IMG/VR virus record: IMGVR_UViG_3300009373_000044
Span: 1-21,922 of that record
DNA from: a virus
Length of the DNA stretch: 21,922 bases
Direction: 5' to 3' (one strand)
In this document: piece by piece, positions 1,920 through 21,480 of the stretch
Position numbering within the stretch: the first letter of the stretch is position 1
Layout: every line of letters begins with the position of its first letter
The notes under the pieces: model-generated
What the model saw: only the letters and a program-made list of their open reading frames with translations
What the model was told of the DNA's origin: nothing
The model's database searches: none
Translations under genes and position numbers: made by a program

Positions 1920-3116
1920 ATGGAAAATAAAAGAAGTGAACTCGCTGAGTTATTAGCGAACACGCTTAATAATAAATTTAAAGCAACCAATTATAAAACA
2001 GCCTATTTTCTTGAAGACGATCCCGATGCACCCACAAATGTAAATGAGTGGGTGCCAACTGGGTCATCTATACTTGATATTAAAATATCAAATAAACCAA
2101 ATGGAGGATTTCCCGTTGGTCGTATAATTGAGCTTCTAGGATTGGAGGCTAGCGGAAAATCTTTACTAGCCGCGCATGCACTAGCCAATACACAGAAACT
2201 GGGAGGCATAGCAGTTTATATTGAAACTGAAAGTTCAGTAAGCAAAGAATTTCTAAGAGCAATCGGGGTTGATTTGAAGAATTTGGTATATGTACCACTT
2301 GATACAATTGAAGACGTATTTGAAGCGATTGAATCAATTATCGAAAAAATCAGAAAAACAAGTAAAGATGTTCTAGTAACTATAGTAGTTGACTCAGTTG
2401 CAGCAACAACTACAAAACTGGAAATGTCATCTGACTATGATAAAGCCGGATATAATACTGGTAAGTCTATTATCATTTCACAGGCCTTACGTAAAATAAC
2501 CAATACAATCGCTCGTGAGCGAGTGTGTTTAATATTCACAAATCAGCTTAGAAAAAACATGAACTCAATGCCTGGAACCGATCCATATACCACAAGTGGT
2601 GGTATGGCTCTTGCGTTTCATTCATCTGTTAGAATCCGATTGAGAAATATGGGCAAATTAAAAACCAAGGCAGGCGGTGTTGAAGAAGTAGTCGGTATGA
2701 AGACTCGAGTTGTTATTACAAAGAACCGAGTTGGTCCACCGTGGAAGGAATTGGTGTATGATATATATTTCAATTCTGGAATTGATAATTGTGGTGGTTG
2801 GTTGACCACAATGAAGGAAAGAAAACTTGTCAAACAAGCGGGAGCTTGGTACGAGTATACAGATAAAGATACTGGTGAAGTTCTAAAATTTCAATCTAAA
2901 ACATTTGAATCAGACATATTATCTGATGAAACTAGAAAAGAAACAATATATAATGATATATGTAATTCATTGATATCAAAATATAGAGCCAATGAAGATG
3001 GTGGTATTGATGATATCAAAGTTGATGAGAACATATATGATGAAGATATTGATGAACTAACAGACTCGGAAGATGATGCAAAACCATCAGCAAAAATAAA
3101 ACCAAATGTCAAATAA
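1920..3116 (+). CDS. uvsX: UvsX/RecA-like recombinase
   Basis: This 398-residue RecA-family ATPase forms filaments on ssDNA and pairs homologous strands. The core shows a Walker A motif GLEASGKS (residues 74-81), a Walker B strand VTIVVDSVAA (about 153-162), and a RecA-like segment IFTNQLRKNMNSMPG followed by TTSGGMALAFHSSVRIRL. The C-terminus is acidic (YDEDIDELTDSEDDAK), as in T4 UvsX. It lies 18 nt after the gp32 gene, its functional partner. No clear Shine-Dalgarno precedes the ATG. Its last 11 nt overlap the likely true start of the exonuclease gene at 3106. The frame is complete and I see no intein in it, although UvsX is a known intein target in related phages. Confidence 0.9.
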   Translation: MENKRSELAELLANTLNNKFKATNYKTAYFLEDDPDAPTNVNEWVPTGSSILDIKISNKPNGGFPVGRIIELLGLEASGKSLLAAHALANTQKLGGIAVYIETESSVSKEFLRAIGVDLKNLVYVPLDTIEDVFEAIESIIEKIRKTSKDVLVTIVVDSVAATTTKLEMSSDYDKAGYNTGKSIIISQALRKITNTIARERVCLIFTNQLRKNMNSMPGTDPYTTSGGMALAFHSSVRIRLRNMGKLKTKAGGVEEVVGMKTRVVITKNRVGPPWKELVYDIYFNSGIDNCGGWLTTMKERKLVKQAGAWYEYTDKDTGEVLKFQSKTFESDILSDETRKETIYNDICNSLISKYRANEDGGIDDIKVDENIYDEDIDELTDSEDDAKPSAKIKPNVK

Positions 3117-4131: not shown

Positions 4132-5515
4132 TAACTTAAAAGAACACGACGATAACTTTCAAGCTAAATTAATAGCTTCTTTTATCACTGATAAGTTTTT
4201 CTTTCAACAAGTAATTGATGTTATTGATCCAAAGCATTTTACTACAGAGATGGACCAGTTTGTCGTTAAATTAATGTTTGATCACTTTTTGGATTATAAA
4301 CAATTACCGACAGGAACTGTAATAAAAACTGAAATTGAAAAGATTAAAGATGATGTATTGAGATCATCAATATATGATAGATTAAAAAAAGTTCAATCGG
4401 TTATTGACTCGACTGATTTACAATATGTCAAGGATGAATATTTGAAATTCTGTCTAACCAAAGAAATCGAATCAGCACTAATAAAATCAGCTGACTTATT
4501 ACAAGTTGGTGAATTAGATGGAATAAAAACACTAGTCAGTAATGCATTTAATTCAATATCGGATCGCGATTTTGGTCATAATTACTTAAAAGGATTTGAA
4601 GATAGATACGAGAAAGATATCCGAAATCCAATACCAACTCCATGGCCGGTTATTAATAAAATAATGGATGGCGGATTATCTGGAGGAGAACTTGGGTGTG
4701 TAATCTCACCGCCCGGAAGAGGAAAAACATGGAGTTTGTCGGCAATTGGTTCTCACGCTCTTAAGATTGGAAAAAATGTATTACATTATACACTTGAAAT
4801 TAATGAGCATTATGTGGCAAAACGATATGATTCAATATACAGCGGCGTACCATTTTCAGAACTAAGGTTCAAAAAAGAAGAGGTATTTGATAGTATTAAA
4901 AGTTATGATGAATCAACTCTAATAATAAAAAAATATGGTGGCAAAAAAGCATCAATACAAACTCTTACTGCTCATATTGAAAAATGTATCAATAATGGAA
5001 TAAAGCCAGATTTGATTGTTGTAGATTATGCTGATTTACTAAAACCTACAATATATCATAATAAAGAATCACATGCGATATTGCAAGACATATATGTCGA
5101 CTTATGCGTATTGGCCGAAGAATATAATATACCGTGCTGGACTGCATCACAAACCGGAAGACATGCTATAAACTTAGATATTATTGAAGATGATTCAATT
5201 GCCGGATCATATGGCAAAATAATGGAATCATATTTTGTTATGACAGTATCAAGAAATGTAACAGATAAAGAAGGCGGAACAGCAAAAATCTTTGTGGCAA
5301 AGAATAGATTTGGTCCAGATGGATTAACTTTTCCTTCGAAATTTAATGCAAGCAACGGCCGGATATTGATATATGAAAAAGATAGCATTGAAGGAAAAAA
5401 AGTAACGAATGATCTAGACAATGATATACCAACAAGAGTTGAATTACGTGATAGGTTCAATGATTTGATGGGCAAAGACAAAAAATTAGATGATAAAAAA
5501 ATAGATTTAGGATAA
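4121..5515 (+). CDS. 41: gp41/DnaB-like replicative helicase
   Basis: This 464-residue protein is a hexameric RecA-fold DNA helicase of the DnaB/T4 gp41 type, which moves 5'-3' on the lagging strand and recruits primase. The N-terminal helical domain (about 1-150) is followed by PTPWPVINKIMDGGLSGGEL, the Walker A motif PPGRGKT (197-203), a Walker B region IKPDLIVVDYADLL (about 292-305) and a late segment ASQTGRHA...DSIAGSYGK typical of the family. It starts 11 nt inside the exonuclease gene, so translation is probably coupled. The gene is uninterrupted, although gp41 helicases are known split-intein hosts in environmental phages. Confidence 0.88.
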   Translation: MQSDNLKEHDDNFQAKLIASFITDKFFFQQVIDVIDPKHFTTEMDQFVVKLMFDHFLDYKQLPTGTVIKTEIEKIKDDVLRSSIYDRLKKVQSVIDSTDLQYVKDEYLKFCLTKEIESALIKSADLLQVGELDGIKTLVSNAFNSISDRDFGHNYLKGFEDRYEKDIRNPIPTPWPVINKIMDGGLSGGELGCVISPPGRGKTWSLSAIGSHALKIGKNVLHYTLEINEHYVAKRYDSIYSGVPFSELRFKKEEVFDSIKSYDESTLIIKKYGGKKASIQTLTAHIEKCINNGIKPDLIVVDYADLLKPTIYHNKESHAILQDIYVDLCVLAEEYNIPCWTASQTGRHAINLDIIEDDSIAGSYGKIMESYFVMTVSRNVTDKEGGTAKIFVAKNRFGPDGLTFPSKFNASNGRILIYEKDSIEGKKVTNDLDNDIPTRVELRDRFNDLMGKDKKLDDKKIDLG

Positions 5516-5536
5516 TATTTAGGAGGATATATATAC

Positions 5537-6739
5537 ATGCTATACAATTATAATGATGTTTTAGAAAAAACAAAACAGTATTTTGATGGTGATGAGTTAG
5601 CAGCTATAGCTTGGATCAATAAATACGCTTTAAAGGACTCAGATAAAAATATATATGAGCTAACTCCAGATGATATGCACAATAGACTGGCTGATGAAAT
5701 ATCTAGAGTGGAAAATACATATGATAATCCAATAACCAGACAACAAATATATGAATTATTAAAAGACTTTCAATATGTTATTCCACAAGGCGGACCAATG
5801 GCCGGCATAGGAAATAACTATCAGATTACATCCTTATCAAATTGTTTTGTCGTTGGCAGTGATCCACCGGCAGATTCATATGGTGGTATATTAAAAACTG
5901 ACGAACAACAAGTTCAACTGATGAAACGTAGGGGAGGAGTTGGACATGATTTGTCGCACTTAAGACCATCAAATTCATCTGTACAAAATTCAGCATTAAC
6001 GTCAACTGGTGTTACTTCATTTATGGAGAGATATTCTAATTCAACTAGGGAAGTAGCACAAGACGGTCGTCGTGGTGCTTTAATGCTAACACTATCGATA
6101 AAACACCCCGATGTACTTGAATTTATTAAGATTAAATCTAATTTAGATAAAGTTACTGGAGCAAATGTGTCTATAAAATTGACTGATGAATTTTTGAAAT
6201 CGGTTATTGCTGATAAAAAATTTACACATACATTTCCAATTAATGCAACTGGCGATGATATAAAACAGACAAAAGAAGTTAATGCTATTGACTTATGGAA
6301 TCAAATTGTATTTAATGCTTGGAATACTGCTGAACCTGGAATATTATTTTGGGATAAAATTATATCTGAAAGTCCAGCTGATTGTTATAAATCAGATGGA
6401 TTTGAAACAGTGAGCACGAATCCATGTGTTTCGGGCGATACAATAATAACAACCAATATTGGCAAATTGACAGTTAAAGAAATTTTTGAAAGATTTAATA
6501 ATGGTGAAAAATTTATTATTGATTCGTTTAATGTTAAAGAAAACAAACTAGAAAAAGATGAAATAGAGGATATATTATTGACAAAAAGAAATGCGAATAC
6601 TATAGAATTAATTTTAGAAGATAATTCAACACTTGTTTTAACACCAGACCATAAAGTGTTTACTAAAAATAGAGGATGGGTCAATGCGTGCCAGCTTTGT
6701 GAAGAAGATATTTTATTAAAGATTGATGAAAAAAGTTGA
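5537..6739 (+). CDS. nrdJ: NrdJ ribonucleotide reductase N-terminal fragment fused to N-intein 1
   Basis: The first 296 residues are the N-terminal part of a class II (adenosylcobalamin-dependent) ribonucleotide reductase, which makes dNTPs. SNCFVVGS holds a catalytic Cys (about 103), followed by LMKRRGGVGHDLSHLRP. The extein ends ETVSTNP, just before the conserved catalytic NPCSE motif. From Cys297 the sequence is a split-intein N half of 104 residues: CVSGDTIITT (block A) and TPDHKVFTKNRGWV (block B), ending at TGA 6737-6739. AGGAGG (5521-5526) gives a strong ribosome site. The matching C half and the next extein piece start at 7554, after an endonuclease gene. The class II call rests on the C-terminal zinc-binding tail of the last fragment. 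Confidence 0.9.
   Translation: MLYNYNDVLEKTKQYFDGDELAAIAWINKYALKDSDKNIYELTPDDMHNRLADEISRVENTYDNPITRQQIYELLKDFQYVIPQGGPMAGIGNNYQITSLSNCFVVGSDPPADSYGGILKTDEQQVQLMKRRGGVGHDLSHLRPSNSSVQNSALTSTGVTSFMERYSNSTREVAQDGRRGALMLTLSIKHPDVLEFIKIKSNLDKVTGANVSIKLTDEFLKSVIADKKFTHTFPINATGDDIKQTKEVNAIDLWNQIVFNAWNTAEPGILFWDKIISESPADCYKSDGFETVSTNPCVSGDTIITTNIGKLTVKEIFERFNNGEKFIIDSFNVKENKLEKDEIEDILLTKRNANTIELILEDNSTLVLTPDHKVFTKNRGWVNACQLCEEDILLKIDEKS
6425..6736 (+). other. Split intein 1, N-terminal half
   Basis: These 104 codons begin at Cys (TGT 6425-6427), directly after the NP of NPCSE. Block A is CVSGDTIITT and block B is LTPDHKVFT with the expected Thr and His. There is no C-terminal splicing motif before the stop. 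Net charge by count is about -6 (20 acidic, 14 basic), complementary to the basic C half at 7554-7670. Confidence 0.9.
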
Positions 6740-6764
6740 AAAATTTATTTTCGTGATATATATA
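6736..6764 (+). promoter_or_regulatory. Candidate promoter for intein-1 endonuclease gene
   Basis: TTGAAA (6736-6741), a 17-nt spacer and TATATA (6759-6764) lie between the N-intein and the endonuclease gene. The -35 box contains the N-intein stop codon TGA (6737-6739), the same arrangement as at 20180-20207. A possible AT-rich stem (6741-6752 with 6793-6806, 2-nt bulge) would enclose the -10 box and the start codon. In DNA this AT-rich, the call is tentative. Confidence 0.4.
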
Positions 6765-6789
6765 GTATATTAAAGATGGGCACAGATTT

Positions 6790-7557
6790 ATGGAAAATGA
6801 AAATTTAGATGAGTTTAGAAATTTTATATCTGATATATATGAGCAAAAATTTTTTGATGTTAAAGGTAAGGCGCGATTTCATAATATTGAAAAAATTAAA
6901 AATGACAAAAGATATGAAAATTCTAAAAAGATTATTGAAAAATATTATTATGAAAAAGGATTTGGCATAAAATATTTTATAAAATATTTCAAATTGAATG
7001 TTTCTTACCCAGTTCTTAGAAAGTGTTTCTTAAATTTTTTTGAAATAAAATTGAGGAGTTATGAAGAAATAACAGATAATTTACGCAAACTAAGAAGGGA
7101 AAAAATAGAATATGAGAGAGAAAACAATATGGGATGGTTTTCTGAAGAATCAAGAAGAAAGACAAAAATAAGAAATTCTATACAGAGGGGGATCCAAGGT
7201 TATTTTTTTAATGAGAGCAGAAATAAATTCGTTTGGTTAAGAAGTTCTTGGGAATATATTTTTGCAAAATGGCTTAATAAAAATAAATTTGATTGGGACG
7301 TTGAAGTAGAAATGTATAATGTGGGAGGCAAGAAATATAGGCCAGATTTCTTTATATTTGAAAATAGCAAGATAACAAAAATTATAGAAGTTAAAGGCTA
7401 TTGGAAAAATAATAATTGGAAATTTGAAGTATTAGGTGAACAATTAAAAGATAAAAATATAGAATTTATTTTGATAGAAAATATTTTACCCTATTGTTCA
7501 CTTAAATTCAAAGATGAGGTGGAAACTTGGAAACTAGAAAGAAAGGCAGACAAATGA
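6790..7557 (+). CDS. PD-(D/E)XK-type homing endonuclease inside split intein 1
   Basis: This 255-residue protein lies between the two halves of intein 1 and is probably the nuclease that spreads the insertion. The N-terminal two thirds are basic and helical, plausibly for DNA binding. The C-terminal part carries a restriction-like fold: VWLRSSWEYIFAKWL (about 148-162), YRPDF (Asp186) and IIEVKGYW (Glu200, Lys202), giving PD...EXK. The stop overlaps the ATG of the next gene (ATGA, 7554-7557), so the C-intein fragment is probably translated by coupling. No clear ribosome site precedes ATG 6790. It has its own candidate promoter. Nuclease fold is likely; homing role is inferred from its place in a fractured gene. 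Confidence 0.75.
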   Translation: MENENLDEFRNFISDIYEQKFFDVKGKARFHNIEKIKNDKRYENSKKIIEKYYYEKGFGIKYFIKYFKLNVSYPVLRKCFLNFFEIKLRSYEEITDNLRKLRREKIEYERENNMGWFSEESRRKTKIRNSIQRGIQGYFFNESRNKFVWLRSSWEYIFAKWLNKNKFDWDVEVEMYNVGGKKYRPDFFIFENSKITKIIEVKGYWKNNNWKFEVLGEQLKDKNIEFILIENILPYCSLKFKDEVETWKLERKADK

Positions 7558-7670
7558 AAGTTATAGAAACAAAAATAAAAAAAATCAATATTCATAAGAA
7601 TGAAACTGTTTATGATTTGAAAGTTAAAAAAAATAATAACTTTTTTGCTAATGATTTATTGGTCCACAAT
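7554..7670 (+). other. Split intein 1, C-terminal half
   Basis: These 39 codons include block F (ETVYDLKVKKNNNFFAND) and block G (LLVHN) directly before the Cys +1 residue of the extein. Net charge is about +4, opposite to the N half. With the N half the intein is only 143 residues and has no internal endonuclease. Confidence 0.9.
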
Positions 7671-8132
7671 TGTTCAGAAATTCCGTTGTGTATTTTTGAT
7701 TCTTGTCGTCTATTAGCAATAAATTTATATAGTTATGTTTCAAATCCATTTACAAAAAAAGCAAAATTTGATTTTGATTTGTTTAAACAACATATTGGAT
7801 TTGTTACACGTATTATGGACGATATTATTGATTTGGAGCTTGAAAAAATTAAAGTGATTATTACAAAAATAGATAATGATCCAGAACTACCCGAGATTAA
7901 ATTGGTTGAAAAACGCCTATGGGAAAATATTTATCACAAAACATCAGCTGGTCGCAGAACAGGAATTGGAATCACAGCTGAAGGAGACATGTTAGCCGCA
8001 TTGGGTATTCAATATGCTAGTAAAAAGGCCATTGGATTCTCTACACGCGTGCATAAATTATTGGCAATAGAATCATATCGTGAATCAATTAATCTATCAA
8101 AAGAGAGAGGTAGTTTTCAATATGGAATTTAG
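7554..8132 (+). CDS. nrdJ: C-intein 1 fused to NrdJ middle fragment, ends at frameshift
   Basis: The product starts with 39 residues of C-intein 1 (ending FFANDLLVHN), then continues from Cys with CSEIPLCIFDSCRLL, the catalytic NPCSE region of NrdJ, and RRTGIGITAEGDMLAALG. ATG 7554 is chosen over the in-frame TTG 7527 because it forms an ATGA overlap with the endonuclease stop and begins right at the intein fold. After ERGSF (codon ending 8117) the frame runs into TAG 8130-8132. The homologous protein continues in the -1 frame as SIWNLDKEKDNPF. So this gene is truncated by a one-base deletion in a T run, by sequencing error, or is joined to the next frame by -1 slippage. Confidence 0.85.
   Translation: MKVIETKIKKINIHKNETVYDLKVKKNNNFFANDLLVHNCSEIPLCIFDSCRLLAINLYSYVSNPFTKKAKFDFDLFKQHIGFVTRIMDDIIDLELEKIKVIITKIDNDPELPEIKLVEKRLWENIYHKTSAGRRTGIGITAEGDMLAALGIQYASKKAIGFSTRVHKLLAIESYRESINLSKERGSFQYGI
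8111..8120 (+). other. Apparent -1 frameshift site in nrdJ
   Basis: The frame reads GGT AGT TTT CAA and then stops at 8130. Re-reading one base back from the T run at 8114-8117 gives TTT TCA ATA TGG AAT, the expected FSIWN. The -1 frame is closed by TAG at 8111-8113, so the shift must happen between 8114 and 8132. One extra T would restore a single frame. Confidence 0.75.
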
Positions 8133-8599
8133 ATAAAGAAAAAGATAATCCATTTATTAAAAGAATAATGGAAGCTGAACCTGATTTATTGGATGATTAC
8201 AAAAAATATGGTAGACGAAATATATCAATGTTAACTGTCGCGCCGACTGGGTGTTTAGTTGATTCAACTAAAATTAAAACAGATCACGGATATATAACAT
8301 TGGCAGAATTATTTTTGGTTAATGGATATGATCTGGAGAGACTTAGGGGACTACGAGATATGTGGATAGAACCAACCCAGGATATATATGTGTATAATAT
8401 ATTTGGTGAGAAGAATAGAATCACGAAATTATATTGGGCGGGTGAATATAACACGAAAAGAATTAGATTGAGCGATGATAATTTGTTGGAGTCAACCATG
8501 AATCATAAATTTTTAGTTAAACTAAATAATAAAGAAGCAATATGGAAGAAGGCAGTTGATTTACGGGTTGGTGATATTATTATTAAGAAAATTGAATAA
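8117..8599 (+). CDS. nrdJ: NrdJ middle fragment (after frameshift) fused to N-intein 2
   Basis: In the -1 frame the reductase continues as SIWNLDKEKDNPFIKRI, KKYGRRNISMLTVAPTG, up to the conserved APTG/TVS site. From Cys (8252) the sequence changes to a second split-intein N half of 115 residues, ending at TAA 8597-8599. If read alone, the first ATG is 8168, without a ribosome site, which argues that this is the continuation of the preceding frame rather than a separate gene. With the frame corrected, the middle polypeptide is C-intein 1, about 194 extein residues, N-intein 2: a piece that must be spliced at both ends. Confidence 0.85.
   Translation, partial: SIWNLDKEKDNPFIKRIMEAEPDLLDDYKKYGRRNISMLTVAPTGCLVDSTKIKTDHGYITLAELFLVNGYDLERLRGLRDMWIEPTQDIYVYNIFGEKNRITKLYWAGEYNTKRIRLSDDNLLESTMNHKFLVKLNNKEAIWKKAVDLRVGDIIIKKIE
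8252..8596 (+). other. Split intein 2, N-terminal half
   Basis: These 115 codons start at Cys right after APTG. Block A is CLVDSTKIKTDHGYITLAEL; a block B-like segment STMNHKFLVKL carries His. The half is slightly basic (about +2), while its C half is strongly acidic (about -12), the opposite polarity to inteins 1 and 3. Confidence 0.88.
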
Positions 8600-8603
8600 A
8601 TAT

Positions 8604-8636
8604 TTGATATTTTTACTATTGCTCTATACTTATACT
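8604..8636 (+). promoter_or_regulatory. Candidate promoter for intein-2 endonuclease gene
   Basis: TTGATA (8604-8609) is followed 15 nt later by TATACT (8625-8630) and at once by a second TATACT (8631-8636). Spacing to the -35 is not ideal for either (15 or 21 nt), so confidence is modest. The -10 boxes lie in the loop of the hairpin 8615-8662, so a transcript started here would lack its left arm. Confidence 0.35.
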
Positions 8637-8662
8637 AAAGGAACATAAATAGGAGCAATAGT
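8615..8662 (+). promoter_or_regulatory. Hairpin sequestering ribosome site and GTG start of endonuclease
   Basis: ACTATTGCTC (8615-8624) is the exact reverse complement of GAGCAATAGT (8653-8662), with a 28-nt loop. The right arm covers three bases of the AGGAG ribosome site (8651-8655) and the first two bases of the GTG start (8661). In mRNA read through from nrdJ this should block translation of the endonuclease. Confidence 0.75.
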
Positions 8663-9785
8663 GAGAAATATAAAAAAAATATCGTATTTGGAAAAATATA
8701 ACAAACTAGTTGAAGAACATGGACCAATAGAGGGAATGAATCAATATTACCGATTTATTAGGGGGGTGTCATTAGAAAAATATATATTGAAATATGGTGA
8801 AATAGATGGTAAGAAAAAATACGACGAATGGAAAGATATACAAAAGAATTCGGGGGTTTCTTTGGATAAAATGATTAAAAAATATGGTGAAATAGATGGT
8901 AAGAAAAAATATGAGAATTGGAAACAAGATACTAGACAAGATTTAAACGCGTTTATAAAAAGATATGGCCGCATTAGTGGTGAAGAAAAATATAATGAAT
9001 TTAAAAGAAAATCATTGGCCGCATTATCTAAAGTGGATCAATCAAAAAAGAAGTCAATTAGAAAATTAAATTATTGGATGGATGTTACTAACGGTGATGT
9101 TCAACTTGCAAAAAGAAAATTATCCGAATATCAAAATACAGCAAGTTTAGATAAATTTATAAATAAATATGGGGATGTAGATGGTAAAAGACGGTATTTG
9201 GAAACAAATGCAAAAAGAGGAACGACACTACGAACAATGATCGAAAAATATGGTGAAGTAGAAGGTAAAGAAAAATACGAGATTTGGAGGAATACCAATA
9301 AGCACTTGAAAGAGGATTGGATAAAAAAATATGGTGAAGTAGACGGTAATAGGAGATATCTAGAATTAACAAAAAAGAAAATAGAAAGAACCAAAAGATA
9401 TTCTGATATTGGTTTGGAATTCTGTGAAGAAATATATAAGAAACTTTGTCATAAATATAGCAATTTTTATTACGGGGAATCAGAATATATGTTTTTTATA
9501 TTTGAAGATGATGTAAGGATAATAGTCCCAGATATGTATATAAAAGATATAAATTTGGTTATCGAATTTTATGGTGATTTCTGGCATAAAAATCCATTAA
9601 TATATGATATTTCGCAAGAATTTGTAAAAGAAACATGGGAACGAGACGAAAAACGGATCTCCATACTAGAAAAGAAAATAAATTCCAATGTAATAATAGT
9701 GTGGGAATATGATTATCGCAAAGATCCGGATGGTGTAATAAATAAAATAGTGGATGAAATAATTATGAATTATGGAAAAGATTAA
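8661..9785 (+). CDS. Vsr-like homing endonuclease with tandem KYGE-x-GK repeats
   Basis: This 374-residue protein starts at GTG 8661, with AGGAG at 8651-8655. Residues about 14-235 hold six to seven copies of a roughly 29-residue unit, consensus SLxKxIxKYGExDGKxKYExW, probably DNA-binding. The C-terminal domain resembles Vsr patch-repair nuclease: VPDMYIKDINLVIEFYGDFW then His309, followed by WERDEKRISILEK and VIIVWEYDYR. Key residues by position are Asp291, Glu302, Asp306 and His309. Vsr-like (EDxHD) nucleases were described as the endonuclease class of fractured phage genes with split inteins (Dassa et al. 2009). The 3' end overlaps the C-intein gene by 14 nt. Nuclease class is well supported; activity is inferred. 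Confidence 0.82.
   Translation: MRNIKKISYLEKYNKLVEEHGPIEGMNQYYRFIRGVSLEKYILKYGEIDGKKKYDEWKDIQKNSGVSLDKMIKKYGEIDGKKKYENWKQDTRQDLNAFIKRYGRISGEEKYNEFKRKSLAALSKVDQSKKKSIRKLNYWMDVTNGDVQLAKRKLSEYQNTASLDKFINKYGDVDGKRRYLETNAKRGTTLRTMIEKYGEVEGKEKYEIWRNTNKHLKEDWIKKYGEVDGNRRYLELTKKKIERTKRYSDIGLEFCEEIYKKLCHKYSNFYYGESEYMFFIFEDDVRIIVPDMYIKDINLVIEFYGDFWHKNPLIYDISQEFVKETWERDEKRISILEKKINSNVIIVWEYDYRKDPDGVINKIVDEIIMNYGKD
8790..8911 (+). repeat. Exact 32-bp direct repeat inside endonuclease gene
   Basis: Positions 8790-8821 and 8880-8911 are identical and lie 90 nt (30 codons) apart. They encode KYGEIDGKKKY twice. Other repeat units in the gene match only at protein level, so these two copies are a recent duplication or conversion. 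Confidence 0.9.
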
Positions 9786-9912
9786 TATAGAGAATATACA
9801 ATATGAAGAATTAACTGTGATTAGTGTAGATGATAATGTTGCTGAAACAATGGATATTGAAGTTGAGAACGATCATTATTATGAACTAGATGGTGGGATA
9901 TATTCGCACAAT
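9772..9912 (+). other. Split intein 2, C-terminal half
   Basis: These 47 codons show block F (ETMDIEVENDHYYELDGG) and block G (IYSHN), followed by Thr as the +1 nucleophile. Composition is strongly acidic (13 acidic, 1 basic), unlike most split C-inteins, and complementary to a slightly basic N half. Confidence 0.88.
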
Positions 9913-10923
9913 ACTGTATCATTATTAACACAAACCACATCGGGCATTGAACCGTTATTTATGCCATATTATAAAAGAAATAAAAAAATTAATTCAAATG
10001 ATGTTGATGCAAAGGTACATCATACGGATGCTTCGGGTGATAGTTGGGAACAATATAATGTATTTCATCCAAAACTAAAACACTGGATGGAATTGATGGG
10101 GCATACTAATATTGAGGATAAAATAGATGATGAGTTAAATAATATATTTGAAAAATCTCCATACTTTGGATCAACTGCAAATGACATTAATTGGTTGGAT
10201 AAAGTTAAAATGCAAGGTGAAATACAAAAGTGGGTCGACCATTCAATATCAGTAACAGTTAATTTACCAAATACAGCAACAGAAGAATTAATATCAGATA
10301 TATTTAAGCAGTCTTGGAAATCAGGCTGCAAGGGCATTACAGTATATCGCGATGGTTGTCGTGCCGGTGTTTTGATATCAAATAACGATTTAGATAGAAA
10401 TGGGACTAAAATCCAACATAACTCAGCACCAAAACGTCCAAAAATACTTGATTGTGATATACACCAAATAACAGCTCTTGGTAAAAAATGGGTTGTATTG
10501 GTTGGTTTATTAGAAGGAGATCCATATGAAGTTTTTGCATTCAAACAAGATAAAATAACTATATCACCAAAATTTACAAAAGGATTATTAACACGACATA
10601 AGAGCGGCCATTATAAACTAGAAATACCAGACACAATAGAATTCAATGATATTACAAATTTGTTTGAACGTGATGAGCAAGAATCTCTCACTAGAATTTT
10701 ATCATGGGGATTACGACACGGCGGCGGCGTTAAATATGCAATGGAACAACTGAATAAATCGGGTGAATCAATAGCATCATTTAGTAAAGCTATTTCACGA
10801 ACATTGAAAAAATATATTAATGACGGTGATAAATCTAGTGTGCTATGTCCTGAGTGTGGCGGTGAAATGATATATCAAGAGGGATGCATACGCTGCAAAT
10901 CTTGTTCGTGGAGTAAATGTTAA
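9772..10923 (+). CDS. nrdJ: C-intein 2 fused to NrdJ C-terminal fragment
   Basis: The first 47 residues are C-intein 2 (ending GGIYSHN). The reductase then resumes at Thr with TVSLLTQTTSGIEPLF, completing the APTG-TVS motif. The C-terminus carries four Cys pairs or singles (CPECGGEMIYQEGC and CKSCSWSKC), the zinc-binding tail typical of B12-dependent NrdJ. After both splicings and frame correction the enzyme would be about 826 residues. The ATG at 9772 lies 14 nt inside the endonuclease gene, which suggests translational coupling. The gene ends 4 nt before the next. Confidence 0.9.
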   Translation: MEKINIENIQYEELTVISVDDNVAETMDIEVENDHYYELDGGIYSHNTVSLLTQTTSGIEPLFMPYYKRNKKINSNDVDAKVHHTDASGDSWEQYNVFHPKLKHWMELMGHTNIEDKIDDELNNIFEKSPYFGSTANDINWLDKVKMQGEIQKWVDHSISVTVNLPNTATEELISDIFKQSWKSGCKGITVYRDGCRAGVLISNNDLDRNGTKIQHNSAPKRPKILDCDIHQITALGKKWVVLVGLLEGDPYEVFAFKQDKITISPKFTKGLLTRHKSGHYKLEIPDTIEFNDITNLFERDEQESLTRILSWGLRHGGGVKYAMEQLNKSGESIASFSKAISRTLKKYINDGDKSSVLCPECGGEMIYQEGCIRCKSCSWSKC

Positions 10924-10927
10924 AATT

Positions 10928-11260
10928 ATGAAAAAGGTATTACTTGAAGAATTGAATTGGCCAAATGATTTCGATAGCGATTGGTTAAATGAGATAATAG
11001 AATCTGTTAATGAAACATCTGATTGGAATGGAAAAGCTAAAATGGTAATTACACAAAAAGATGTTGATGATTATAATGGATTATTTGATAATATGCTGGG
11101 ATGGGAATTCCAAATTCAACAAAATAAACATGAAGACCATAAGACCGATGGCCAAATGGTTGAATATCAAATTAGCATAACTGATAATAAAAAACAAAAA
11201 ACACAATTTTATACTGAAATGTGTTTGATGGTTGGTTGGAACATTAAGTTATTAAAATAG
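10928..11260 (+). CDS. Hypothetical small acidic protein
   Basis: I do not recognise this 110-residue protein. It begins 4 nt after nrdJ, in the AAATTATGAAA start context shared by several small genes here, and has no Shine-Dalgarno. It is rich in Asp, Glu, Asn and Trp (LNWPNDFDSDWLNE, SDWNGKAKM), with no cysteine motif or membrane segment. It sits between nucleotide metabolism and DNA polymerase, so an accessory replication role is possible but unproven. Confidence 0.6.
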   Translation: MKKVLLEELNWPNDFDSDWLNEIIESVNETSDWNGKAKMVITQKDVDDYNGLFDNMLGWEFQIQQNKHEDHKTDGQMVEYQISITDNKKQKTQFYTEMCLMVGWNIKLLK

Positions 11261-11288: not shown

Positions 11289-13166
11289 ATGTACCAAAAT
11301 CTTTTTTTCGATCGAGAAAGTTATGTAATGCACGTCTTCGACGATGCTAAAGGATACTATAAATCCAAATACAATTCGTATGCCTATGTATTAGATGCTG
11401 GTGGTATGTATAATACACTGGATGGCAAAACTGTTAAGAGGATACCGGGATATAAGGTTAAAGAATATGATAAAAGTTTATTATATGAATCAGATGTAAA
11501 ACCAGAAATAAGGTTTTTGATCGACAAGTACGGACTATCAGATGAACCATCCAAAAATCATATTACACTATTTTTTGATATCGAAGTCGAATCAGCTGAT
11601 GGTTTCCCAGACCAAGTATTAGCTGAGCAAGAGGTAACTGCAATATCATGTTGGATAAAAGAGATAGATTCATCTATACTACTTCTTCTTGATAAAAGCG
11701 ACATTATAAAAGATGTAAATAAGAAAAATGTTAAAATTATATCATTCAAAGATGAAGTATCTTTATTGGATGAATTTATTAATATATTACACAAAATCAA
11801 ACCAACGATACTAACTGGTTGGAATATAAATAACTTTGATATACCATATCTATATAATAGGTATACCAATATATTTGGTGAAGATGTAGCAAAACAATTA
11901 AGTCCAATTAACATAGTTAAAGAGGATCATTATAACGACGGTGAATATAAAATAGCTGGTGTAAATTGTTTAGACTATTTATTATTATATAAGAAATTCG
12001 AATCAAACCAGAAACAAGCATATTCACTTGATTTTATTGGTGAATTGGAGATAGGACTTGGCAAGGTAAAATATGACAAATCATTGGATGATCTATACAA
12101 TACAGACATCGAAGGATTTATTGAGTATTGTTTTCGTGATGTTGAAATTGTAAAACAACTTGATGAAAAATTAAACCATATTGAACTGACTAAGATGGTA
12201 TGTCATAAAGGACACGTACCATACGAAGATATATTTATGTCGTCTAGATATTTAGAAGGAGCGATATTAACGTATTTGAAAAATAATGAAATAGTATCAC
12301 CCAATAAAAAACCAGAAATCAAACTTGTATTATCTCGAGATCATAACTTAGATGAATCAAAATTATATGTTAGAAGCATACCAAAAGAAACACCATTAAG
12401 TGGTATGTTAGGCATAAAGAAATCAAAATCCTCATTTGTATATGTCGACTATAAAGAATATAAGGGGAACTATTTCATATTAAAGGAACCACTAAAAGAA
12501 TATATAGATAAAACTTATAAGGTATCGTTCGAGTTTACAGGAGCTAGAGTTAAACCACCAAAACCAGGTAGGTTTAAGTGGATGTTTGATTTAGACTTAA
12601 AATCAATGTATCCGTTTTCAATTATTACATTGAATATATCTCCAGAAACAAAAAAAGGCAAAGTATTTGAATTTGACCCATATGAGTTTTATAATAATAA
12701 AGACGCAAATATAAGAGTCATATTTGACTCAGATGAATTATTGATTACGTATTCTGAATTAAGGAAATTGTTGATAAAATATAATTGTTCTATATCATCC
12801 AATGGAATAATTTATTCACTTGAAAAACGTGGTTTGATACCAAATATACTTGAATTGTGGTCTTTTGAGCGCGATGATGTAAAGGAAAAACGCGATGAAC
12901 ATAAAGAAGGATCAAAGAAATATCAGTATTTCGATAGACTCCAGGAAAGGCAAAAGGTTTTGCTTAACTCAATTTATGGGTGTCTTGGTCTGCAATCATT
13001 TCGTTGGTATGATTTAGATAATGCGGAAGCAACAACGTCGAGTGGAAGGACATTAATAACATATTCAGAAAAAGTTGCAAATTTATTTTATAATAAAGAG
13101 TTAAATATCGATGTAAGTGCATCAAAAAATAATCAAGTAGATTATTGTGCTTACATCGATACGTAG
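11289..13166 (+). CDS. 43: Family B DNA polymerase, N-terminal fragment (exonuclease and palm to motif C)
   Basis: This 625-residue piece carries the proofreading domain and most of the polymerase domain of a T4 gp43-like enzyme. Exo I is FFDIEVES (Asp97, Glu99), Exo II GWNINNFDIPYLYNR, and Exo III YCFRDVEIVKQL. Polymerase motif A is DLDLKSMYPFS (about 434-444) and motif B RQKVLLNSIYG (about 554-564). The frame stops at TAG 13164-13166 right after YIDT, the first half of motif C (YxDTDS); the other catalytic half, DS, begins the next frame. Split gp43 genes are known in some T4-like Aeromonas phages, but a cut between the two motif C acidic residues would need very exact reassembly. It could also be a scar, a recoded gene or an error. 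Confidence 0.88.
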   Translation: MYQNLFFDRESYVMHVFDDAKGYYKSKYNSYAYVLDAGGMYNTLDGKTVKRIPGYKVKEYDKSLLYESDVKPEIRFLIDKYGLSDEPSKNHITLFFDIEVESADGFPDQVLAEQEVTAISCWIKEIDSSILLLLDKSDIIKDVNKKNVKIISFKDEVSLLDEFINILHKIKPTILTGWNINNFDIPYLYNRYTNIFGEDVAKQLSPINIVKEDHYNDGEYKIAGVNCLDYLLLYKKFESNQKQAYSLDFIGELEIGLGKVKYDKSLDDLYNTDIEGFIEYCFRDVEIVKQLDEKLNHIELTKMVCHKGHVPYEDIFMSSRYLEGAILTYLKNNEIVSPNKKPEIKLVLSRDHNLDESKLYVRSIPKETPLSGMLGIKKSKSSFVYVDYKEYKGNYFILKEPLKEYIDKTYKVSFEFTGARVKPPKPGRFKWMFDLDLKSMYPFSIITLNISPETKKGKVFEFDPYEFYNNKDANIRVIFDSDELLITYSELRKLLIKYNCSISSNGIIYSLEKRGLIPNILELWSFERDDVKEKRDEHKEGSKKYQYFDRLQERQKVLLNSIYGCLGLQSFRWYDLDNAEATTSSGRTLITYSEKVANLFYNKELNIDVSASKNNQVDYCAYIDT

Positions 13167-13169
13167 ATG
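13106..13169 (+). other. Hairpin followed by ACG-TAG-ATG inside polymerase motif C
   Basis: TATCGATGTAAG (13106-13117) is the exact reverse complement of CTTACATCGATA (13150-13161). Two G-U and two Watson-Crick pairs extend the stem inwards, leaving a 24-nt loop. The right arm encodes AYID of motif C. Then follow ACG (Thr), TAG (13164-13166), ATG (13167-13169) and GAT TCA (Asp-Ser). Removing TAGATG gives an uninterrupted YIDTDS. Confidence 0.75.
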
Positions 13170-19934: not shown

Positions 19935-20183
19935 ATGATTGACAAAAATAAAGAACATTTTTTCTGGAATGAGCGGTACCGCCCCCAAAATTTAGATGAT
20001 TATGTGGGCAATGAAGCATTAATACAGAGCGTCAAAATATGGATAGAAAGTGGCGAAATCCCAAATCTATTATTATATGGGAAAGCTGGGACGGGCAAAT
20101 GTTTGGATTATTCTGAGTATATTGATATTGAGATGGAAGTATCTGATGATGAATATAAGATACTAAAACAATATGAAATTTGA
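19935..20183 (+). CDS. 44: gp44-like clamp loader N-terminal fragment fused to short N-intein 3
   Basis: The first 55 residues are the start of an AAA+ clamp-loader ATPase: FWNERYRPQNLDDYVGNEAL is the family's opening box, and LLLYGKAGTGK is the Walker A motif up to its Lys. Then Cys (20100) opens a 27-residue N-intein that ends at TGA 20181-20183. The Walker A Thr and the rest of the protein come from the gene at 20305. Neither fragment can bind ATP alone, so loader activity depends on trans-splicing. No strong ribosome site precedes the ATG. Confidence 0.88.
   Translation: MIDKNKEHFFWNERYRPQNLDDYVGNEALIQSVKIWIESGEIPNLLLYGKAGTGKCLDYSEYIDIEMEVSDDEYKILKQYEI
20100..20180 (+). other. Atypical split intein 3, short N-terminal half (27 aa)
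   Basis: The half contains only the block A region (CLDYSEYIDIEMEV), then an acidic stretch. Block B is in the C half instead. Splits between blocks A and B with a very short N half are known from environmental phage inteins such as AceL-TerL and the VidaL group. Net charge is about -7 against +4 for the C half. Confidence 0.85.
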
Positions 20184-20207
20184 AATATTTTCTAGAAAAC
20201 ATATACT
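20180..20207 (+). promoter_or_regulatory. Candidate promoter inside split intein 3
   Basis: TTGAAA (20180-20185), a 16-nt spacer and TATACT (20202-20207) lie just after the N-intein. The -35 box contains the stop codon TGA (20181-20183), as at 6736-6764. It would drive the C-intein/clamp-loader fragment now that the endonuclease gene is gone. Confidence 0.45.
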
Positions 20208-20321
20208 AATTTAATATTCTTATGCCATTCGTGTCATGCTAGAACCGCAAACTCGCATGATGATGGTTGGATTGATTATTATGTAAATAAAAATAAACAG
20301 TTTTATGAAAAAGAAATTTAG
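20196..20321 (+). pseudogene. 3' remnant of an HNH homing endonuclease gene
   Basis: The frame of 20196-20321 encodes KTYTNLIFLCHSCHARTANS, then HDDGWIDYYVNKNKQFYEKE and Ile before TAG 20319-20321. NLIxLCxxCHxRT is the end of an HNH nuclease domain, including its second CxxC and the following His. The frame has a stop at 20193-20195 and no start codon, so only about 41 codons remain and the protein cannot be made. It overlaps the C-intein start (20305) by 17 nt, the way the intact endonuclease gene in intein 2 overlaps its C-intein gene. Confidence 0.8.
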
Positions 20322-20694
20322 GTTACCAGTTGGAGAACTTTTTAAGTTTTTTAATTTATTGGATATTGATGATAATGATACTGTTGATATTAATAGATAT
20401 TTAGCTATTAAAAATCAATATAATAAATATAAACGTATTAATTCTTTAATAAAAAAACAGGGTCAAGTAAATATATATAAATTTGAAGATGATATAAATA
20501 TTAAATGTGATGAAAAACATTTAGTTAGATGTAATAATAGATTTATATGTATAAAAGATGCCGATACAGTTGATACAATATATGGAAATAAAAAAAAGAT
20601 GGGGGCAATATCAGGAACTATTAAAGATGTTTATGATTTTTCAATAGATAGTCCACACGAATATATAACATCTAATGGTGTTATTTGCCACAAT
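20305..20694 (+). other. Atypical split intein 3, long C-terminal half (130 aa)
   Basis: A basic start (MKKKFRLPVGELFKFF) is followed by block B (INIKCDEKHLVRC, with Cys where Thr is usual), block F (VYDFSIDSPHEYIT) and block G (GVICHN) before Thr +1 of the extein. Cys before the terminal His-Asn is unusual but seen in some inteins. Confidence 0.85.
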
Positions 20695-21480
20695 ACATCT
20701 TTAGCAAAATTATTGGTTAAGAATATAGATTGTGATTTCATGTATGTTAATGCCAGTGATAAAGGTAATATTGATTTTCTTAGAAACGAAATCATACCAT
20801 TCGCAACATCAATTGGATTTAAGGATCGTAAAATTATAATTCTTGATGAAGCGGATTATTTATCATTTGGTGGAATGGGTGGTTCTCAACAAGCACTTAG
20901 AAATACAATGGAAGCATCATCTAGAAATACAAGATTTATTTTAACTTGTAATTATGTTGAAAAAATAATTGATCCAATCAAAAGTCGTTGCGATGTATAC
21001 CATATAACACCACCATCCAGGAAAGAGGTCGCTGTATTATTAACTAAAATTCTTAATAAAGAGCAAGTGGAATATGATGTATCTGATTTAGCAGTAGTTG
21101 TTAATTCAACATATCCGGATATGAGGAGAGCTATTAATTTGATTCAACGACAATCCATTAATGGTAAACTTAAGATTAGCAAACAATCAATTATTGAATC
21201 AAATTATATGCTAAAAATAGCAGAAGAACTAAAATCCAATAAAGAACCAAAAGAAAAATTCAAATCAATACGTAAAATAATATCAGATAGTAAAGTAAGA
21301 GATTTCGAAGATTTATATAGATTTCTATTTGATAATGTAGATGACTATGCAAAAGGAAATATAGCATCTGTTATATTAGAAATAGCCGAGACTCAGTTTC
21401 AGTCGACTTTCGTGGTGGATAAAGAAATTGCGGTAACAAGCTTATTGGTGAAATTAATTAGGACCATAAATGAAAAATAA
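20305..21480 (+). CDS. 44: C-intein 3 fused to gp44-like clamp loader C-terminal fragment
   Basis: The first 130 residues are C-intein 3; the clamp loader resumes at Thr of Walker A (TSLAKLLVKNI). Further AAA+ motifs are Walker B IIILDEADYL, sensor 1 FILTCNYVEK and the arginine-finger region IKSRCD, then helical lid and collar domains. Joined exteins total 316 residues, close to T4 gp44 (319). The complex loads the gp45-like clamp. The ATG at 20305 has no visible ribosome site and lies inside the HNH remnant, suggesting that translation once depended on the lost endonuclease gene. Confidence 0.88.
   Translation: MKKKFRLPVGELFKFFNLLDIDDNDTVDINRYLAIKNQYNKYKRINSLIKKQGQVNIYKFEDDINIKCDEKHLVRCNNRFICIKDADTVDTIYGNKKKMGAISGTIKDVYDFSIDSPHEYITSNGVICHNTSLAKLLVKNIDCDFMYVNASDKGNIDFLRNEIIPFATSIGFKDRKIIILDEADYLSFGGMGGSQQALRNTMEASSRNTRFILTCNYVEKIIDPIKSRCDVYHITPPSRKEVAVLLTKILNKEQVEYDVSDLAVVVNSTYPDMRRAINLIQRQSINGKLKISKQSIIESNYMLKIAEELKSNKEPKEKFKSIRKIISDSKVRDFEDLYRFLFDNVDDYAKGNIASVILEIAETQFQSTFVVDKEIAVTSLLVKLIRTINEK

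Follow-up and report, generated by a model that had tools for sequence, protein, structure and literature searches.

Fractured genes, which Dassa and colleagues reportedly described in 2009, are genes broken by a split intein that carries a free-standing endonuclease gene between its two halves. Here, we analyzed a locus that resembles them in a 21,922-nt stretch of viral DNA (IMG/VR virus record IMGVR_UViG_3300009373_000044, positions 1 to 21,922; hereafter, the window), where a gp44-like clamp-loader gene is split by an intein at its Walker-A motif. As in fractured genes, a phage replication gene is broken by a split intein and endonuclease sequence lies at the break. However, the endonuclease of the window is not free-standing but cut to a 41-codon stump devoid of a start codon, with the split kept; several stages of decay are found at this one site among relatives, and the nuclease is of the HNH rather than of the Vsr-like family. 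We favor, with a probability of about 0.88, that this split intein reached its endonuclease-free state by decay of a fractured gene in which the split persisted.

Other described systems compare as follows. In the homing cycle, an endonuclease no longer under selection decays, and the splicing element is left in place (PMC3229294). The window fits this scheme in that its endonuclease has decayed and its splicing element is retained, yet the cycle ends in a contiguous mini-intein, whereas what results here is a split intein lacking an endonuclease or, in one relative, an apparent re-fusion. The atypically split inteins VidaL, AceL-TerL and PolB16 OarG (PMC13014065, PMC10189870) are likewise related, VidaL being among the top fold matches of the C-terminal intein half (IntC) of the window. 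The intein of the window differs from these three in its host gene and in the endonuclease fossil in its gap, and its N-terminal half (IntN) has 27 residues, including a charged tail of 12-13, against 15-16 in PolB16 and VidaL. Finally, HNH homing endonucleases (PF01844; phrog_144, phrog_119) share the C-terminal motif NLxxLCHxCHxxT with the stump, and the gene of one relative, when read through, matches the full domain, although the window retains just the startless end of such a protein.

As such, endonuclease remnants have been noted in phage genes before: a 2013 survey mentions putative homing endonuclease gene (HEG) domain remnants in the intron-interrupted coding region of Lactococcus phage nrdD (PMC3653736). 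The literature searched, with subscription papers mostly outside its coverage, yielded neither a phage clamp-loader split intein nor a report of endonuclease stumps inside split inteins. New here are the decay series at one site, the loss of the endonuclease from a gene that stayed split, and, possibly, a re-fusion. The origin of natural endonuclease-free split inteins has so far been a matter of inference; a series at a single site makes the order of steps testable in further relatives, and the locus family supplies related short-IntN split inteins for trans-splicing work.

An HNH endonuclease stump between the intein halves

The N part of the clamp-loader gene (19935-20183) reads ...GKAGTGK/CLDYSEYIDIEMEVSDDEYKILKQYEI followed by a stop, with the IntN codons at 20100-20180, and the C part (20305-21480) starts with MKKKFRLPVG and passes the junction ...SNGVICHN/TSLAK (Table 1). 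The remnant comprises 41 open codons (20196-20318; KTYTNLIFLCHSCHARTANSHDDGWIDYYVNKNKQFYEKEI) in the frame of the N part, closed by a TAG at 20319-20321 and bounded upstream by another at 20193-20195. It contains no in-frame ATG, GTG or TTG and runs 17 nt past the ATG of the C half. A preliminary description of this locus, made from the letters alone, had given the same figures (27-residue N half, 130-residue C half, 121-nt gap, 41 codons and 17-nt overlap), all of which we reproduced, and its view of the remnant frame as untranslatable is consistent with the absence of the usual start codons. Two other assemblies of the same phage (L001 and L002) are 100% identical to the window across 6618 bp that include the locus, which excludes a local assembly error.

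Table 1. Features of the split clamp-loader locus in the window
Feature	Position	Strand	Relation
Clamp-loader gene, gp44-like, split by intein at Walker-A motif	19935-21480	+	
Clamp-loader N-extein, C-terminal end is Walker-A GKAGTGK	19935-20099	+	Uninterrupted counterpart in L003
IntN, 27 aa (CLDYSEYIDIEMEVSDDEYKILKQYEI), then stop TGA	20100-20183	+	Homologous to IntN of L009, L010, L020, L023
Gap between the two half genes, 121 nt	20184-20304	+	
HNH endonuclease fossil, last 41 codons and stop, without usual start codon	20196-20321	+	
IntC, 130 aa, C-terminal ICHN, then Thr+1	20305-20694	+	Intein fold of model
Clamp-loader C-extein, TSLAK... through stop TAA	20695-21480	+	

Several comparisons identify the remnant. 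Its PHROG matches of known function are HNH endonucleases throughout (best E 0.0018), with one family of unknown function also matching at E 0.085, and Pfam PF01844 aligns with it over profile positions 29-43 of 47 (E = 0.011). It lacks the complete H-N-H core and scores 16.4 bits against a gathering cut-off of 21.4, as expected for a fragment of which just the tail remains. A tblastn search of 50,697 phage records returned seven weak matches, several with HNH annotation. Screening 2.9 million viral contigs with degenerate codons for NLIFLCHxCHA..T retrieved only L001, L002 and a relative, L010, where the match coincides with the split point of the clamp-loader gene. Direct comparison with the same position in relatives further revealed similarity to L020 (E 2.8e-14), L023 (1.1e-7) and L010 (3.4e-6), with no match in L009, L021 or the contig of L030. 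Judged from these alignments, chance is a poor explanation for the HNH likeness, and the similarity to HNH C-termini on which the preliminary identification of the remnant as the end of an HNH nuclease hinged is indeed present in PHROG families, PF01844 and the relatives.

Other readings of the gap were discarded. Translation past the N-half stop and on into the C half is ruled out by two in-frame stops beyond IntN (TGA 20181 and the TAG that bounds the remnant), and the frame of the fossil differs from that of the C half. The frame MKFEIFSRKHILI (ATG 20174), considered as the own N-terminus of the endonuclease, is merely an overlapping frame of the IntN tail, a similar chance frame being found in L020. 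Nor did any Rfam family reach threshold anywhere in the window, as a group I intron would require.

Relatives at the same split point

Relatives were collected from scans of the viral contigs, plus phage records and species genomes. The most complete HNH sequence is that of L010, a split intein whose 1018-nt gap holds a near-full-length HNH gene lesioned by two frame changes in A-rich runs and an in-frame TGA; when read through, this gene matches positions 1-46 of 47 of PF01844 (E 2.3e-7, 31.3 bits). In L020, a 205-nt gap contains an HNH tail of ~65 codons including HLHHIDYDKRNDSRENLIF, and in L023 a 107-nt gap contains a 42-codon tail that begins inside the stop region of the N half; an upstream ATG is also missing for both stumps. 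The overlap of the HNH frame with the C half is the identical 17 nt in all four HNH-bearing loci (window, L010, L020 and L023). L009 is split as well, with a 10-nt gap and no HNH trace. The intein of L021 is contiguous though placed inside the split clade, and the clamp-loader gene of L003 is intein-free. The contiguous intein of L004 (LR756508.1, a 484-kb phage), without endonuclease, provided the outgroup. As read from these sequences, one site shows the endonuclease lesioned, truncated in three different ways and completely absent, besides an apparent re-fusion. The preliminary description had pointed to relatives with an endonuclease at this point as decisive: L010, L020 and L023 carry HNH sequence exactly there, near-full-length in the first and truncated in the other two, but the strictly intact gene that it had anticipated was not among them.

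More distantly related are L030/L031, whose clamp loader is split by an intein in the same P-loop and which contain a full-length endonuclease of a non-HNH family, with a C-terminal MTES_1575-like match in L031 (E 0.0027). Apart from 14 in-frame TAGs, the L031 endonuclease frame (1069-2529) is open, and TAA closes it as well as both half genes; TAG is evidently decoded as Gln in this phage. DNA-binding repeats similar to those of the L010 HNH protein occur in the L031 endonuclease (43% over 68 aa) and, at 50% over 58 aa, in a protein that Caulobacter phage Cr30 encodes next to the terminase gene. Such repeated modules (YWLKKGYSxxEA / KYGExxG) are common to the endonucleases of L010, L031, L016 (Cr30) and window positions 8661-9785, with different nuclease domains at their ends (HNH or PD-(D/E)XK-like), which suggests domain swapping among them. 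The remaining matches of the C-junction scan were set aside: L022 and L024-L027 were regarded as chance matches, since they lack intein halves there, and L029 looks like a terminase intein.

Intein fold and predicted splicing

The junctions of the window carry the residues of a split intein, that is, Cys1 and CHN followed by Thr+1, and the C-H-N-T junction is invariant among the aligned relatives. Modelled with AlphaFold2 (mean pLDDT 77.7), IntC resembles known intein structures at E-values down to 3e-5, the top matches including the RadA, NpuDnaE, VidaL (6vgv), Cat and gp41-1 inteins. At the sequence level, Pfam PF14890 matches weakly, with E 0.075 in the C half of the window and 0.0022 in the contiguous L004. 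Joining of the exteins, GKAGTGK and TSLAK, yields GKAGTGKTTLAK of the intein-free L003 gene. The length of IntN falls within the range of N-terminally (atypically) split inteins (about 15-37 aa), and the split, atypically near the N-terminal end, precedes a helix that the model places at IntC residues 9-15. These motifs and the fold argue for trans-splicing of the two halves, which would restore GKAGTGKTSLAK, the Walker-A motif. Since the split interrupts this motif, the clamp-loader ATPase is presumably inactive until spliced.

A second split intein is located at LDE/C of the clamp loader in L010 (about 4500-7000) and L020 (about 10490-11250), and the protein is therefore made in three pieces in both.

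Timing of the endonuclease loss

The remnants of the window and L020 share 20 identical amino acids over the 33 codons upstream of the overlap, with pN/pS values of 0.35 for the remnant and 0.36 for IntC. Random placement of the same substitutions gave a mean of 12.3 identical residues and reached 20 in 0 of 20,000 trials, which indicates that the gene still encoded protein while the two accumulated most of their divergence. The remnants would thus have diverged mostly while translated, unless the stump is still constrained, a rival reading weighed below. Because the window and L020 keep different lengths of the gene, the truncations in their lineages were probably separate, and recent; a single, longer shared stump that was shortened further in one of them is a possible alternative.

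Phylogeny and an apparent re-fusion

In the intein tree, the window, L020 and L021 form one clade (support 100/99), and L010 pairs with L023 (89/92). A tree including L031 was rejected as distorted by its long branch. The sole grouping in the extein tree is L020 with L021 (98/99), the extein of the window not being clearly with them (p-AU 0.056), and amino acid identity between the window and L020 is 60% in the intein versus 51% in the extein. These data are consistent with horizontal movement of the intein, though they do not prove it.

Forcing the two contiguous inteins, L004 and L021, together was rejected (p-AU 0.018, for a pair picked after tree inspection). A constraint joining all HNH-bearing rows was disregarded as uninformative, L021 descending from inside that group. 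The L021 intein reads CLDYSELIDIKMRVSDDEYQILK-FLNLLDIGLSE: the IntN tail (SDDEYQILK) is kept and runs straight into FLNLLDI of IntC, and the contiguous L004 has no such tail. The KKKFRLPVGELFKF stretch is absent from L021 and present in the split relatives, its form in L004 being RELRLPVGRLFELL. Most simply, a deletion would have run from the IntN tail into IntC and taken out the stop, the gap with its endonuclease remnant and the start. The predicted structure of L021 still matches inteins, with the first 17 residues modelled at low confidence. We lean, with some reserve, towards the view that split inteins can revert to a single gene, as by this re-fusing deletion; L021 appears to have gone another way than persistence of the split. 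If true, its re-fusion adds a reverse branch to the homing cycle.

Proposed history and alternatives

Decay of a fractured gene would have started from an N-terminally split clamp-loader intein with a free-standing HNH homing endonuclease gene in its gap, which presumably conferred mobility on the arrangement. The half proteins would be made separately, IntN and IntC would associate, and chemistry at Cys1, Asn130 and Thr+1 would join the exteins. With its 3' end, the endonuclease gene extends 17 nt into the C half, an overlap that probably coupled translation of the two. Later, the endonuclease would have lost selection and been deleted from its 5' side, leaving its last 41 codons as a non-coding leader of the C half, and other lineages would have lost other amounts of it. 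The split would have persisted because re-joining needs an in-frame deletion that retains a working intein. With the coupling gone, the C half of the window would have to start alone behind an A/U-rich leader that is largely fossil. In L010, a strong hairpin (2965-3060; z -4.65) that includes a perfect inverted repeat of 11 bp follows the N half, ahead of the endonuclease start; regulatory elements are reported to arrive with phage homing genes. Deletion of the endonuclease from an essential gene that remained split, as the preliminary description had proposed, is largely supported by the HNH series at the same site, and the end state of L009 speaks for the route to endonuclease-free split inteins that it had envisaged.

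Some points weigh against this history. No strictly intact HNH copy was found at the site in viral contigs, phage records or species genomes, the lone species-genome match (L033) not having been looked into, and the lesions of L010, partly in A-runs, could in part be sequencing errors. L009 may never have had an endonuclease. The selection signal comes from a single pair of 33 codons, and protein splicing is deduced from motifs and fold only. The direction of change, in turn, depends on the nature of the remnants and on small trees, of just 7-8 rows, rooted on the distant contiguous L004.

The alternative that survives best, although we consider it unlikely, is that the split intein came first and an HNH gene was inserted into the gap later, in some lineages only. 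It would readily account for L009, split without a trace of endonuclease, and for the contiguous L004, where the intein itself does not require one. However, homologous HNH sequences with the identical overlap occur in two separately branching lineages (window/L020 and L010/L023), so the gene was most likely in their common ancestor; besides, later insertion would leave the deletion of the HNH gene in the window unchanged as a conclusion.

It is considerably less probable that a function maintains the stump, be it that of a small peptide or that of a leader (ribosome-binding region) for translation of the C half. All stumps retain their 3' end with precisely the 17-nt overlap, which, like the amino acid-level conservation between the window and L020, would suit such a role, but recent death explains this conservation equally well. 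Moreover, the stump of the window has no usual start codon and those of L020 and L023 no upstream ATG, L009 manages without any stump, and the gap of the window has no recognizable Shine-Dalgarno sequence and no RNA structure better than that of shuffled sequences. An assembly or sequencing artefact, suggested by a homopolymer error elsewhere in the window (in the ribonucleotide reductase (RNR) gene) and the A-run lesions of L010, is hardly credible, as it is refuted for the window by the two identical assemblies, and the same arrangement recurs in independent relatives.

Other split genes and endonucleases

The RNR gene of the window (5537-10923) is split twice by inteins in the manner of fractured genes, with free-standing endonuclease genes still present (6790-7557 and 8661-9785) that overlap the next C half by 31 nt (6790-7557, if the start is TTG 7527) and 14 nt (8661-9785). 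At about 8113-8117 the window has TTTT where L035, another assembly of the same phage, has TTTTT, and the RNR frame is broken in the window; this 1-nt difference is window-only, both other assemblies having one extra base. The DNA polymerase gene is cut in motif C by an in-frame TAG followed by ATG (13164-13169; YCAYIDT, stop, MDSLFF), also in the other two assemblies. The L004 DNA polymerase has an intein at about the same point (VHN/TDSVFY), and the break in the window may be a split that outlasted its intein. Finally, the terminase and helicase genes of another phage, L015, both seem to be interrupted by split inteins, and each split holds an endonuclease-like gene.
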